From: Cellulophaga baltica
Lineage (GTDB): Bacteria > Bacteroidota > Bacteroidia > Flavobacteriales > Flavobacteriaceae
Assembly: GCF_018861125.1 (NCBI RefSeq)
Contig: NZ_JAHKQN010000029.1
Location: forward strand, 57,531 to 121,530
Reading direction: 5' to 3'
DNA length: 64,000 nt
Shown here: positions 10,462 to 14,449 of the stretch, piece by piece
How positions within the stretch are numbered: the stretch's first letter is position 1
Layout: each line of letters begins with the position of its first letter
Program-made: the position numbers and the translations under genes
Notes under the pieces: generated by a model
Database searches by the model: none
Seen by the model: the letters and a program-made list of their open reading frames with translations, nothing else
What the model was told of the DNA's origin: nothing

Positions 10462-11031
10462 ATGTTTCAGATAGGAAAAACCCTGATATCAGAGGAAATT
10501 ATAGAGAATGATTTTGTTTGCAATATAACCGCATGTAAAGGTGCTTGTTGTATTGATGGAGATGCAGGGGCTCCGCTTGATGAAAAAGAAACGGAGATTT
10601 TAGTAGATATTTACCAAGATGTAAAACCTTTTTTAAGACCTGAAGGTATTGCTGTTATTGAAAAAGAAGGTGCTTTTGTAAAGGGTGAAGATGGTGAGTG
10701 GGAAACTCCTTTAGTTAATGGTAGTGAATGTGCTTATGTAGTTTTTTCTAAAAATGGAACTGCTAAATGTGCATTAGAAGATGCTTATAATGAAGGAATA
10801 ACTACATGGAAAAAACCCGTTTCATGCCATATGTACCCTGTTAGAATACGCGAATATTCAGAATTTACAGCTGTAAATTATCATAAGTGGCATATTTGCG
10901 ATGATGCATGTTCTTTGGGGGCTGAATTACAAGTGCCTATTTATAAATTTGTAAAAGAAGCTTTAGTGCGTAAATTTGGCGAAGAGTGGTATACGGAATT
11001 GGAGCAAGTAGCTAATGATATGGCTAAATAG
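10462..11031 (+). CDS. DUF3109-family cysteine-rich protein
   Basis: 189-aa protein of the DUF3109 family. Its N-terminus carries a dense cysteine block (FVCNITACKGACCIDGDAG) and further cysteines occur in SECAYV, AKCALED, SCHMYP and the C-terminal HICDDACSLG. This resembles metal or Fe-S binding zinc-finger-like YkgJ proteins, but the biochemical role is unknown. Start chosen at ATG 10462 because the upstream TTG belongs to the -7 box. The last 8 bases overlap the 3' end of the convergent histidine kinase gene. Confidence 0.87.
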   Translation: MFQIGKTLISEEIIENDFVCNITACKGACCIDGDAGAPLDEKETEILVDIYQDVKPFLRPEGIAVIEKEGAFVKGEDGEWETPLVNGSECAYVVFSKNGTAKCALEDAYNEGITTWKKPVSCHMYPVRIREYSEFTAVNYHKWHICDDACSLGAELQVPIYKFVKEALVRKFGEEWYTELEQVANDMAK

Positions 11032-12970
11032 TAGGGAGTGAAATTACTACTTTTGTACCACAAGGGGTATCTGTATTATCATAAAGGTCGATAATTTCCA
11101 CATCAAAAGAATTGTGGTAATCTTTTGAGAAATTATATAAACGTTCTTTTGTGATATTTATACCGATTGATTTTCTTTTTAAAACCTTATTTTCTTTTAT
11201 CACTTCAGAAGCTCCTCGGCCAATACCATTATCTGTAATAGTGATTATATTAAAATAATCATCTTTAGAAAAAACATCTAATCTGATTTTTTTTTCTCCT
11301 ATTTTTGAAGATAAGCCATGCCAAATTGCATTTTCTAAAAAGGGTTGTAGTATTAAAGAAGGAATTTTAATATGTTCTGTATCAATGTTTTTTTCTACTT
11401 TAATTTGAAAATCTATTTCGTTTGAAAATCTAATATTTTCAATATTCATATAAAGTTCAATAGTTTCTAATTCGTCAGATAAAGAGATTTCTTTTAGTGT
11501 AGAAGCTTCAAGAATTTTGCGTACTAGTTTTGAAAATTTATTTAGATAATAAACTGCATTTTTAGTTTCATTATTAATAATATACAGTTTTATAGAATTT
11601 AAAGAGTTGAATAAAAAATGAGGGTTCATTTGACTCCTTAGCATAGTTTGTTCAAGGGTTAATAATTTTTTCTCACTTTTTAGTTGAAACTGTCGGTATA
11701 GTATGTAGAGTATTAAAGCAAGAAGAGCTAAAGAAAGCAAACTAACTAAAATAGTATTTTCATTTTTTTTAAGTTCGAGTCTTACTCTTTCATTTTCACG
11801 AGCTAAAGCCTCAATTTGGCTATTCTTCTTCTCAGTATCATACCTAAACAGAATATCATTTACGTATTTGATATTTGTTTCATTATTGATAGTTTCATCA
11901 ATTAATTTTGCTTTTTTATAATATTGTAGTGACTTTTTATAATCCTTTTTTATAGAATATAATTCTGATAGGTGACTATAGCCTAAAACTTGAGATTTAG
12001 GGGAATTATGTTCTTTTGCCAAAAATATCCCATTTAATAAGTGGTTTTCAGCACTTTTGTATTCTTTGAGTTGTATTTGAGCCATTCCTAAATTTAAGTA
12101 GATAGATGCGGCCAGATAATTATTATTAGCTTTTTGGGCTTCTTTTAATGTGGTTTTTAATAATTTTTTTGCTTCAATGGTTTTGTTTTGTTTTATATAA
12201 ACCTGTGCTATATAATTATTGCAAATTAACTTTCCTATATCATTATTAATTTGACTGCTGTATGTGTAACTTTTTTTATAATATTTAAGAGCTAAATCCA
12301 ATTGACCCAATTCTTCATAACAAGTGCCAATATTTTGATTGTTTACCGCTAGGCCGATAGCGTTTCCAATATTTTCGTCTTGTTTTAATGAAGTATTGAA
12401 TTTTTCTATTGCAATTTGATATTGCTTCAAAGACAAATATATATTACCAATATTATTTAGTGCGAAAGTTATATTTCGTTTTACTTGATAATTTGGTTCT
12501 TTTTCTAATTCTCCTAATTCTAAAGCTCGTTGAGCATAATCTAATGAGGTTTTTATAGCATCAATATACTTGTAAGAGAGGCTTAGCATATTTAGACTGT
12601 ACAGTTGTAAAACAACATTATTAGCTTGTTTAGCTATTTTTAATGCTTCTTTGTGATGGTTTATCCCTTTTTGTAATTGTGACGTATTTCTGTATTTATT
12701 ACCCAAGTGATTTAAGGCATATGATTGGCCTTCTAAATAATTATTCTTTCTAGAGATTTTTAAAAAGTAATTAAGTAGAATTGTGTCGTATTTTACGTTA
12801 TTTAATTTTTTGTTGAGAGTATCATATTTTTGTGGTGTTGAAGCAACTATGCTATCAACTTTATTTTTAAAGTTTTGAGGTATTTGTTGTGATAATGAAT
12901 AATTTATATTAAAAAATATAAAATAGACACAGAGTTTTTTAATTGTTTTATACTTTGGTTGTATTGACAT
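11024..12970 (-). CDS. TPR-repeat sensor histidine kinase (LytS/YpdA type)
   Basis: 648-aa sensor kinase. The order is an N-terminal hydrophobic signal/anchor (about 11-26), six or more tetratricopeptide repeats (about 75-365), a short coiled coil, one transmembrane helix (about 407-426), a His_kinase domain with H451 in SQMNPHFLFNSLNSIK, and an ATPase domain with NAIWHGL and DNGIGRG. With a signal at the front and one later helix, the TPR region is probably periplasmic and senses a ligand or protein. It would phosphorylate the LytTR regulator encoded directly upstream. ATG 13006 would add 12 residues ahead of the hydrophobic segment and leave a 6-base gap to the regulator; 12970 gives a more ordinary N-terminus. 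Confidence 0.92.
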   Translation of the reverse strand: MSIQPKYKTIKKLCVYFIFFNINYSLSQQIPQNFKNKVDSIVASTPQKYDTLNKKLNNVKYDTILLNYFLKISRKNNYLEGQSYALNHLGNKYRNTSQLQKGINHHKEALKIAKQANNVVLQLYSLNMLSLSYKYIDAIKTSLDYAQRALELGELEKEPNYQVKRNITFALNNIGNIYLSLKQYQIAIEKFNTSLKQDENIGNAIGLAVNNQNIGTCYEELGQLDLALKYYKKSYTYSSQINNDIGKLICNNYIAQVYIKQNKTIEAKKLLKTTLKEAQKANNNYLAASIYLNLGMAQIQLKEYKSAENHLLNGIFLAKEHNSPKSQVLGYSHLSELYSIKKDYKKSLQYYKKAKLIDETINNETNIKYVNDILFRYDTEKKNSQIEALARENERVRLELKKNENTILVSLLSLALLALILYILYRQFQLKSEKKLLTLEQTMLRSQMNPHFLFNSLNSIKLYIINNETKNAVYYLNKFSKLVRKILEASTLKEISLSDELETIELYMNIENIRFSNEIDFQIKVEKNIDTEHIKIPSLILQPFLENAIWHGLSSKIGEKKIRLDVFSKDDYFNIITITDNGIGRGASEVIKENKVLKRKSIGINITKERLYNFSKDYHNSFDVEIIDLYDNTDTPCGTKVVISLPTI

Positions 12971-13012
12971 GCGTCTATTTATTTTAAGCTGAAAACAAAG
13001 TATCATTCAAAA

Positions 13013-13753
13013 CTACAAAAGGTCTAGAAAATCAGATTTTTTTTGTCTTGATACTGGTATTTTTTGATTGTTTTCTAAAACAATGTATCCTTCTGCTTTA
13101 TAAAATTCTTTTACTTTAGTTAAATTTATTATATATGAATTATGGACTCTAAAAAAAGTGTCATCTGGTAAAATTTCATTGACTTCTTTTAATTTTTTAG
13201 TAATCACAATTTTGGTTTCATCACATAGAAAAATGGTGCTGTAGTTTCCATCAGATTCTATATATGAGATTTCTTCATTGCGTAAAAATAGTATCTTACC
13301 ATCAGCATTTATGGTTATTTTTTTTTGAGTTTGGCTTTCGTGAAAATTTAAAAGAATTTGTTCTAATTTATCTGGTGTAAAATGTTTTGTGTTAAATTTT
13401 TTTATTTTTTCAACTGTAGCGTTCAAATCATCAGAATCAATAGGCTTTAATAAATAATCAATCGCTTCATTTTTTAAAGCTTTAATAGCATATTGATTGT
13501 ATGCAGTTGTAATAACCACAGGAAAATCTCTATTACTTAACCTCTGCATGAATTGAAAACCATCCATTGTAGGCATTTCTATGTCTAAAAAAAGACAGTC
13601 TGGTATGTTTTTATTATTGTTTAAATATGATAATGCTTCAATAGGATTTGTAAATGATGCTACAATATCAATCTCGTTACTGAAGTTAGTGAGCTCCCAG
13701 GTTAAACTTTGGAGAGCCTTTGCTTCGTCATCTACGATTACAGCTTTTAACAT
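13013..13753 (-). CDS. LytTR-family response regulator
   Basis: 246-aa regulator. The receiver domain (1-120) has the acidic pocket D8-D9, phospho-acceptor D57 in FLDIEMP, T83 and K103. The LytTR DNA-binding domain (about 146-245) has the typical SYIESDGNYSTIF and FFRVHNSYIINL segments. It pairs with the kinase gene that follows. LytTR domains bind paired direct repeats about 21 bp apart; such pairs lie upstream at 13821-13854 and 13908-13941, so positive autoregulation is likely. Nearest known analogues are E. coli BtsR and YpdB. Confidence 0.95.
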   Translation of the reverse strand: MLKAVIVDDEAKALQSLTWELTNFSNEIDIVASFTNPIEALSYLNNNKNIPDCLFLDIEMPTMDGFQFMQRLSNRDFPVVITTAYNQYAIKALKNEAIDYLLKPIDSDDLNATVEKIKKFNTKHFTPDKLEQILLNFHESQTQKKITINADGKILFLRNEEISYIESDGNYSTIFLCDETKIVITKKLKEVNEILPDDTFFRVHNSYIINLTKVKEFYKAEGYIVLENNQKIPVSRQKKSDFLDLL

Positions 13754-13782
13754 GTTTGTTCGGTATAAAGTATTGGGTGTTT

Positions 13783-13790
13783 CAAAAATA
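13783..13790 (-). promoter_or_regulatory. -7 promoter box of the LytTR/kinase operon
   Basis: Minus strand reads TATTTTTG, 29 bases before the regulator ATG and exactly 30 bases beyond the repeat core at 13821. Preceding bases AAATACTCT match AAATAATCT before the rightward box at 13971. A TTG lies 26 bases upstream, further than usual, as expected of an activator-dependent promoter. Confidence 0.7.
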
Positions 13791-13820
13791 AGAGTATTTT
13801 TTAATTATTTAATGTTCAAT

Positions 13821-13854
13821 GTGTAATTGGTTAGTTTTTAAGTGTAGTTGGTTA
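13821..13854 (-). promoter_or_regulatory. predicted LytTR binding site, leftward pair
   Basis: Read on the minus strand, TAACCAACTACAC and TAACCAATTACAC are direct repeats with a 21-bp period (12 of 13 identical). Shared core is ACCAA(C/T)TACAC. The core resembles the published E. coli BtsR half-site ACC(G/A)CT(C/T)A, also repeated every 21 bp. The pair sits 68-101 bases upstream of the regulator ATG. Confidence 0.75.
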
Positions 13855-13907
13855 AAATATCCCATTTTATTTTTGTAATAGTTATATTACTTATTTGGTT
13901 TTAGGAT

Positions 13908-13941
13908 TACCATTTATACAGTTTTTTATACCATTTATACA
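13908..13941 (+). promoter_or_regulatory. predicted LytTR binding site, rightward pair
   Basis: TACCATTTATACA occurs twice, identically, at 13908-13920 and 13929-13941: a 13-base direct repeat with 21-bp period. Its core ACCATTTATAC matches the leftward pair at 8-9 of 11 positions, in opposite orientation. It ends 30 bases before a TATTTTAG box. Confidence 0.75.
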
Positions 13942-13970
13942 TTCCAATTCTTTAAAATATTAAATAATCT

Positions 13971-13978
13971 TATTTTAG
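13971..13978 (+). promoter_or_regulatory. rightward -7 promoter box downstream of the LytTR repeat
   Basis: TATTTTAG, one mismatch from TAnnTTTG, is preceded by AAATAATCT. Fifteen of 17 bases match the leftward operon promoter. It would start a transcript near 13983, about 73 bases before the small membrane ORF. Confidence 0.6.
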
Positions 13979-14056
13979 TACTGTAAAACAATGAGTTAAA
14001 TAAAAACTGCTGAATTTTTATTGAATAAATAATCAAATTTTATAAAAGAAGTGAAC

Positions 14057-14131
14057 ATGTTTTTAGCAATAGTTTTATTTATGGTTTTAATAGTTCTTAT
14101 AGCTATTATACTTTTCACTGAAAATAATTAA
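14057..14131 (+). CDS. putative 24-aa single-pass membrane peptide
   Basis: A 24-codon ORF beginning ATG TTT TTA and ending TAA encodes MFLAIVLFMVLIVLIAIILF followed by TENN: one hydrophobic helix of about 20 residues and a short polar tail. An in-frame GTG at 14051 would add two residues. A purine stretch AAAAGAA lies 6-12 bases upstream. It is the first ORF after the predicted LytTR-activated rightward promoter, with no other gene before the hairpin at 14411. Small membrane peptides often modulate transporters or sensor kinases; such a role here is inference, and no homologue is known to me. Confidence 0.5.
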   Translation: MFLAIVLFMVLIVLIAIILFTENN

Positions 14132-14410
14132 GACCTAATAATTATTAACTTATTTAGATAATAATCAATTTACAATAAAAACTGTCAAGCCAATTAATAC
14201 TATTGAGTATAAGCTATATGTAATAAATTTAATTACTGAGTTCTGAAATTTATTTTCAGGTATTTGATTTTTAGGTTTCGGGGGGAACTTCCTAAGTCAA
14301 TAAAAAGTCGTTAATGAACAAATTTTACTATGGCGATTTAATAGTATGGTTTGGCAGTGTTGTAAATTTCAATTATTTTAGTTTAAGATATTTAAAATAT
14401 AATTTAAATT
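14132..14410 (+). other. unassigned transcribed region after the small peptide ORF
   Basis: About 280 bases lie between the peptide ORF and the hairpin, presumably in the same rightward transcript. An unusual GGTTTCGGGGGGAAC segment (14276-14288 region) stands out in AT-rich DNA. A 32-codon ORF starts at 14314 (MNKFYYGDLIVWFG...) and ends at 14412 inside the hairpin; its composition is unremarkable and I do not call it. The region could be a 3' UTR or regulatory RNA. Confidence 0.35.
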
Positions 14411-14449
14411 AAAACACCTCCCAAAGACATTGTCTTTGGGAGGTGTTTT
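14411..14449. terminator. strong hairpin, likely terminator of the rightward transcript
   Basis: A 19-bp perfect inverted repeat, AAAACACCTCCCAAAGACA and its complement, separated by one base. T-rich tracts lie on both sides (GTTTTG rightward, TTTTAATTT leftward). The sdhCAB operon has its own terminator at 14480-14508, so this hairpin best serves the rightward transcript. Confidence 0.75.

Follow-up and report, generated by a model that had tools for sequence, protein, structure and literature searches.

Divergent LytTR operators and a candidate structured RNA effector in Cellulophaga baltica and other Flavobacteriaceae

LytTR response regulators bind paired direct repeats about 21 bp apart. 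In Cellulophaga baltica, a stretch of 64,000 nucleotides (contig NZ_JAHKQN010000029.1, positions 57,531 to 121,530; hereafter, the window) contains a LytTR regulator gene next to two operator-promoter modules facing in opposite directions. A first, sequence-only reading proposed that the regulator activates its own operon and one divergent target. What is this divergent target, and do relatives keep the same arrangement?

Operators beside a LytTR regulator gene

The regulator assignment was borne out, the receiver and LytTR domains scoring 81.3 and 73.5 bits against Pfam cut-offs of 30.2 and 22.6, and a TPR sensor histidine kinase lies alongside. The features of this part of the window are as follows.

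13013..13753, minus strand: LytTR response regulator, 246 aa (Pfam Response_reg 7.4e-23, LytTR 1.7e-20)
11024..13006, minus strand: TPR sensor histidine kinase (His_kinase, PF06580), 3' of the regulator and codirectional
13821..13852, minus strand: leftward operator pair, belonging to the regulator/kinase promoter, with a 21-bp period between half-sites 13842-13852 and 13821-13831
13783..13790, minus strand: TATTTTTG, the -7 box for regulator transcription, separated from the core by 30 bases
13909..13940, plus strand: operator pair of the divergent promoter, with a 21-bp period between half-sites 13909-13919 and 13930-13940
13971..13978, plus strand: TATTTTAG, the -7 box for divergent transcription, separated from the core by 30 bases

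The four cores announced for the two mirror-image pairs of 21-bp direct repeats were all found, at their positions and with 0 mismatches; a scripted count gave these 4 exact ACCAWYTAYAC cores in the 64-kb window, against a mean of 0.36 per window and a maximum of 3 in 200 runs of a first-order Markov simulation. Core pairs at 21 bp occurred in none of the 200 simulated windows, versus 2 in the real one. The gap of 30 bases from each pair to its -7 box proved exact at both promoters, and the bases preceding the boxes are indeed alike (AAATACTCT and AAATAATCT). Both boxes are of the TAnnTT type, the Bacteroidota-type -7 consensus being TAnnTTTG; a sigma-70-type promoter scan found no excess, the sigma-70 model being uninformative for Bacteroidota. 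The whole-genome scan for such pairs that the sequence-only reading had suggested returned the window pairs as both of the 0-mismatch sites of the genome, together with one 1-mismatch site (G000:C33:10399). At ≤3 mismatches, 23 sites were found, versus 4 for a reversed-pattern control; three of the 21 sites other than the window pairs were inspected.

Regulator orthologs with at least 61% identity (range, 61 to 86%) were present in 26 of the 60 genomes searched, the C. baltica genome included, and 33 further ortholog loci (60 to 77% identity) were added from named genome contigs, some of them metagenome-assembled genomes, including Maribacter, Arenibacter, Muricauda/Allomuricauda, Eudoraea, Zeaxanthinibacter, Robiginitalea, Winogradskyella, Polaribacter, Lacinutrix, Olleya, and Tenacibaculum. 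The resulting set of 59 loci comprises L001-L026, L054-L085, and L089; loci L027-L030 (≤44% identity), L086-L088, and L090-L133 (≤55%) were left out of its counts. A kinase homolog adjoins the regulator in all 59. Within the C. baltica genome, the regulator query gave 37 matches, some of which may reflect only the receiver domain. In a PDB sequence search with the regulator, the best matches were receiver domains. A plasmid collection gave no match.

The alignment of relatives, also suggested at the outset, shows that both pairs recur, as does the spacing of 29 to 30 nt to the box. Pairs were scored at spacings of 14 to 32 within 400 nt at the 59 loci, with mismatches totaled over the 24 positions of two 12-mers. 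At 21 bp and ≤3 total mismatches, the divergent pair was found at 45/59 loci and the autoregulatory pair at 10/59, while each of the remaining 18 spacings yielded 0 or 1 locus. Best scores averaged 2.15 (divergent direction) and 4.93 (the regulator's own direction) at 21 bp, compared with 6.2 to 8.0 at other spacings; since the own-direction mean also beats those of other spacings, weaker autoregulatory pairs occur beyond the 10 loci. A TANNTT[TAC][GC] box stood 29 to 30 nt past the second 12-mer in 25 of the 45 divergent and 6 of the 10 autoregulatory cases, and a control read backwards showed no box at this distance. By this comparative measure, the operator geometry is evidently real and under selection. 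The two modules, first described as equals, are not so: the divergent module is, on the same counts, better conserved than the autoregulatory one.

A structured RNA behind the divergent promoter

Comparison of the window with the locus of its nearest relative (L002) revealed a perfectly conserved noncoding block, ATTTGATTTTTAGGTTTCGGGGGGAACTTCCTAAGTCAAT, on the divergent side. Forms of this block were found at the same locus in 18 of the 18 genomes of the genus examined, C. baltica included, and it occurs as AGGTTTCGGGGGAACTACCT in Maribacter, Arenibacter, Muricauda, Eudoraea, Zeaxanthinibacter, Robiginitalea, and others. It forms the center of an element of about 150 to 230 nt with two long-range closing helices, whose parts in the window are the following.

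14179..14360, plus strand: conserved structured RNA element (minimum free energy of -50.4 kcal/mol, z -5.5; 57 bits with covariance model R1)
14181..14192, plus strand: 5' strand of the outer closing helix P1a, ACTGTCAAGCCA, partner 14347-14358
14347..14358, plus strand: 3' strand of P1a, TGGTTTGGCAGT, partner 14181-14192
14197..14208, plus strand: 5' strand of the inner closing helix P1b, ATACTATTGAGT, partner 14336-14347
14336..14347, plus strand: 3' strand of P1b, ATTTAATAGTAT, its last base common to the outermost possible P1a pair
14271..14295, plus strand: core hairpin TTAGG-TTTCGGGGGGAACTT-CCTAA with a conserved G-rich loop, near-invariant in aligned copies
14411..14449, plus strand: symmetric hairpin, near-perfect, with the divergent RNA on one side and a convergent sdhB-like gene on the other; terminator score on the minus strand only

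A second copy of the element folds at z -4.1. Examples of the closing strands are ACTGTCAAGCCA/TGGTTTGGCAGT in the window, GTACGGCTCC/GGAGCCGTAC in L157, ATTGCGACCC/GGGTCGTAAT in L014, and TTTACGATTC/GAATCGTAAA in L021. The first 36 copies were selected with the motif GTTTCGGGGG+AACT.CCT and 20 later ones through R1, which was trained on that motif, so that the invariance of the core among them is partly by construction. Together they make an alignment of 56 copies, the 20 being those of 24 family-scan matches that remain when L165, L166, L170, and L187 are left out as duplicate genomes.

Covariation was assessed in two ways, both without control for phylogeny. The 56 copies, aligned from sequence alone, give 16,653 column pairs; of the 9 ranked highest by mutual information (MI-APC), 8 are nested and form base pairs in 80% or more of the sequence weight, and rank 2 does so in just 32%. 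Among ranks 10 to 30, only 207-237 and 203-240 fit the structure, and most high-ranking pairs beyond rank 9 are not base pairs. In alignment A3, which has 18 of the 36 motif-selected copies and was likewise built from sequence only, pairing is seen in 95.8% of cells. Changes on both sides of a pair numbered 45, compared with 16.3 (SD, 4.7) after shuffling and at most 14 after sliding by 1 to 3 columns, a test in which the unslid version is favored because the structure was derived from A3 itself.

With R1, the element was found in 36 of the 59 ortholog loci, in some through longer stretches of the same genome, and was absent from 22; L058 is too short on the RNA side to tell. Scores ranged from the 57 bits of the window copy up to 188 bits elsewhere. 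Under stricter filters, a scan of 199 family genomes (one per genus) gave exactly one copy in each of 24, some of which had also supplied training sequences for R1, and a scan of 148 genomes of the order gave four matches, every one in the same family. In 23 of the 24 RNA-bearing genomes, a LytTR ortholog lies divergently within 1.5 kb, and a divergent operator is present in 19 at ≤3 mismatches and in 22 at ≤5. Since some entries are likely from the same species (L061/L178 and L068/L181), these counts are of loci and not of independent lineages. In one genome (G120; L175/L214), the RNA, a small transmembrane ORF, and a 0-mismatch operator stand together beside an hflX-like gene; some 490 kb separate the RNA from the regulator ortholog (72%), beside which no divergent pair is left at ≤4 mismatches, as if operator and regulated unit had stayed together.

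Could this RNA act in cis, as a riboswitch-like leader of the next downstream gene? Structured leaders are common, and in 8 same-genus relatives (L014-L021) an nrdB-like ORF follows in the same direction. The gene downstream varies among lineages, however, and in the window the RNA is followed by the symmetric hairpin and then by the convergent sdhB-like gene, which leaves nothing to control in cis. We regard a leader function as very improbable. The hairpin at 14411-14449 could provide an end for both the divergent and the opposing transcripts. The gene names nrd, sdhB, lipB, and hflX were assigned by eye, without a family scan.

At the gathering score, the window and 15 related loci (a few of which end inside the element) gave 0 matches to 4227 Rfam families. 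The 37 low-threshold matches, all on terminator-like hairpins and to sRNA, leader, miRNA, and snoRNA families of other organisms, were set aside as chance. The element is distinct from 6S RNA, as the 6S-Flavo RNA (RF01685) of the same genome sits on another contig. A search for antisense targets of the G-rich loop in 18 genomes gave 55 matches beyond the 11 at the locus itself, versus 54 for a reversed-pattern control. Among the literature matches listed, as far as their available text goes, we recognized none describing the element or a LytTR-controlled RNA in Bacteroidota, structured-RNA surveys such as PMC8040213 and PMC2864571 lying outside this scope. The element appears to be an uncatalogued structured RNA common to many Flavobacteriaceae, with a putative regulatory function.

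Proteins of the divergent stretch and a proposed circuit

Between the divergent promoter and the RNA, the window holds a short ORF.

14057..14131, plus strand: 24-aa hydrophobic ORF, without a KKC start

This ORF is probably a reduced form of a small protein of relatives, of about 40 to 70 aa, with a start of the type M(K/R/Q)(K/R)(C/S) (MKKC, MQKS, and the like), a hydrophobic stretch forming a single transmembrane (TM) segment, and a short polar tail. In RNA-bearing relatives, it is typically the first ORF behind the divergent promoter. Among ten close pairs, which are mutually nonindependent, substitutions at codon positions 1:2:3 numbered 42:21:99, a pattern indicating that the relatives' ORF is coding and under purifying selection. 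Of the 24 RNA-bearing genomes, 21 have it, 20 of them in a form with the M-K/R/Q-K/R-C/S start and the window in its reduced form; it was not recognized at the nearest relative's locus (L002; G004), though the operator and RNA persist there. Behind the TM ORF, 14 of the 24 genomes have an ORF of 177 to 200 aa, which is absent from 10, the window included. Examples of both proteins gave nothing above the cut-off in Pfam or NCBIfam. An AlphaFold model of the ~185-aa protein from L061 (5 sequences; mean pLDDT, 76.3) consists of an N-terminal helix followed by mostly beta structure, and a search of the PDB with it gave no fold match at an E value of ≤0.001. Uncharacterized proteins of about 170 to 200 aa lie in the divergent stretches of L003-L006, L009-L012, L056, L057, L061, L063, and L068.

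These observations raise the possibility that the small TM protein is the functional product, feeding back on the kinase like MgrB, a feedback peptide that acts on a kinase, and that the RNA is only a 3' untranslated region (3'-UTR) stabilizing or terminating its mRNA. The position of the RNA at the 3' end of the operon in many relatives means that it could be a 3'-UTR element, and the TM ORF is under purifying selection, first behind the promoter, and present in 21/24 RNA-bearing genomes. Yet the ORF is cut to 24 aa in the window and was not found in 3/24 genomes nor in G004, while the RNA stays, and a terminator would require much less elaboration and conservation than this RNA shows. We consider the TM protein unlikely to be the main product.

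The reading that we consider probable is an autoregulated LytTR two-component switch that activates both promoters, with the structured RNA as its main effector and the TM peptide as an accessory or feedback product. The TPR histidine kinase would phosphorylate the LytTR regulator, which would bind both 21-bp direct-repeat operators, 30 nt before the -7 boxes, and activate both promoters. The leftward promoter would yield more regulator and kinase, a positive feedback. The rightward promoter would yield a transcript whose constant product is the structured RNA, a long-range double stem displaying the G-rich hairpin. The single-TM protein, and often the ~185-aa protein, would be further products of this stretch in most RNA-bearing relatives. 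The RNA may act posttranscriptionally, by base pairing or protein binding, and the TM peptide may act back on the kinase or serve as an accessory. At the level of sequence, the comparisons establish the operators and boxes with their conservation, the conservation and covariation of the RNA, its linkage to the regulator, and, for the TM ORF of relatives, coding constraint; that the regulator binds and activates, that one transcript spans the stretch, and that RNA and peptide have the roles proposed is what we infer.

VirR is LytTR-like and uses direct-repeat boxes. The arrangement here recalls VirRS-VR-RNA of Clostridium and FasBCA-FasX of Streptococcus, in which a two-component system acts through a regulatory RNA, the regulatory role of the RNA being a proposal in our case; it differs from them in its paired mirror-image operators, in its occurrence in Bacteroidota, and in that no trans target was found. 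FasA is homologous to AgrA and promotes the transcription of FasX, as stated in a review (PMC3673130). In the agr system, according to the same source, AgrA is of the LytTR type; of two divergent promoters, one drives its own operon and the second a long structured RNA in which a small peptide is encoded as well (PMC3673130). The resemblance to the staphylococcal agr P2/P3-RNAIII locus is one of architecture: a LytTR-type regulator, whose use of the sites is here putative, and divergent promoters with direct-repeat sites, one side leading to its own operon. In the window, the 24-aa ORF and the structured RNA are in line behind one promoter, possibly on a single transcript. The Flavobacteriaceae locus differs from agr in its phylum, in its TPR-PF06580 kinase, and in a divergent site that is better conserved than the autoregulatory one, and the window RNA, unlike RNAIII, has no gathering-score match in Rfam, the RNAIII family included. 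The regulator scores 37 bits against the 400-bit cut-off of the AgrA equivalog NF046049, and no agrB- or agrD-like gene was seen among the ORFs between 9000 and 20000 that have 60 aa or more, nor among five domain-scanned proteins.

The sites of BtsSR and YpdAB are direct repeats of ACC-type half-sites. These systems of gammaproteobacteria resemble the present one in combining a LytS-type kinase and a LytTR regulator with conserved motifs in target promoters, the targets there being transport proteins (PMC5552118); the C. baltica regulator scores 140.2 bits with the BtsR equivalog (NCBIfam NF008677), below its cut-off of 246. Within Flavobacteriaceae, Rfp18 of Flavobacterium psychrophilum is also a structured RNA, an sRNA with a regulatory effect, comparable here by description only; no LytTR link is described for it, the term LytTR occurring 0 times in the main text of its report (PMC9723704).

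LytTR systems are abundant in Bacteroidota, and a covarying RNA outside Rfam tied to one of them would represent a defined regulon output and a new class of RNA. We know of no RNA effector assigned to the LytTR systems of this phylum. If the reading is correct, the design known from Gram-positive bacteria, a LytTR switch coupled to a regulatory RNA, also exists in a distant phylum, apparently of independent origin. We give about even chances to the fuller proposal of a LytTR-controlled RNA effector module of Flavobacteriaceae, built independently with an architecture like that of agr P2/P3-RNAIII, in which one side carries the feedback genes and the other a dual-function transcript, encoding the TM peptide and the RNA of a new class, that carries out the response.

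Further operator sites and a sister clade

The forecast of the regulator's own operon plus one divergent target stands in part. The divergent module recurs and its putative target is now located, as the stretch ending in the structured RNA; there may be further targets, given the 1-mismatch third pair in the same genome. This pair (G000:C33:10399-10430; L033 1501-1532) lies just past a long gene (an 821-codon open frame), with TAAATTTA 30 nt 3' of the core and a terminator-like hairpin shortly after. At the corresponding position, the best pair has 2 to 5 mismatches in 7 of 17 same-genus relatives, a count made without a control. In some relatives, the genes 3' of this position include a DUF3108-like gene in L218 (own pair with 6 mismatches) and an OmpA-family gene in L224 (4 mismatches), others being similar by eye. 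The regulon may thus extend further, with a possible connection to the cell envelope.

One might then suppose that the system is an ordinary autoregulated LytTR one, with envelope proteins as its divergent target, and that the conservation of the RNA is incidental to that operon. The DUF3108-like and OmpA-family genes behind the third site would fit, as would the 177- to 200-aa ORF in the divergent stretch of 14/24 genomes; but that ORF is missing from 10/24, the window among them, where the RNA is present, and the covariation and conserved loop of the RNA demand a function of its own. This explanation seems improbable to us, and we retain the structured RNA as the candidate main effector.

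The element is lacking in a sister clade (Winogradskyella, Gelidibacter, Olleya, Polaribacter, and others; 22/59 loci), which mostly has the divergent operator. At several of its loci, two hairpins (AGTGATCGTGGGGATTCACT and GATTAAATGCTATTAATC) and a terminator lie upstream of ribonucleotide-reductase-like genes (by eye); in an RNAalifold consensus, only hairpin GATTAAATGCTATTAATC and the terminator appear. Such a hairpin series follows the divergent operator in L022, L024, L067, L069, L070, L071, and related loci. It is suggested to be a short transcript, possibly a different small RNA. GGGGA loops in both clades hint at kinship, their homology being putative.

Repeated, similar promoters with LytTR-like pairs were also seen in three genomes (G002, G003, and G006), upstream of unrelated genes (L191, L192, L197, L202, L203, L204, L207, L208, L209, and L211). 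Several of them are followed by GCGTTTA... hairpin-like stretches, and they resemble the promoter of a cassette or mobile repeat.
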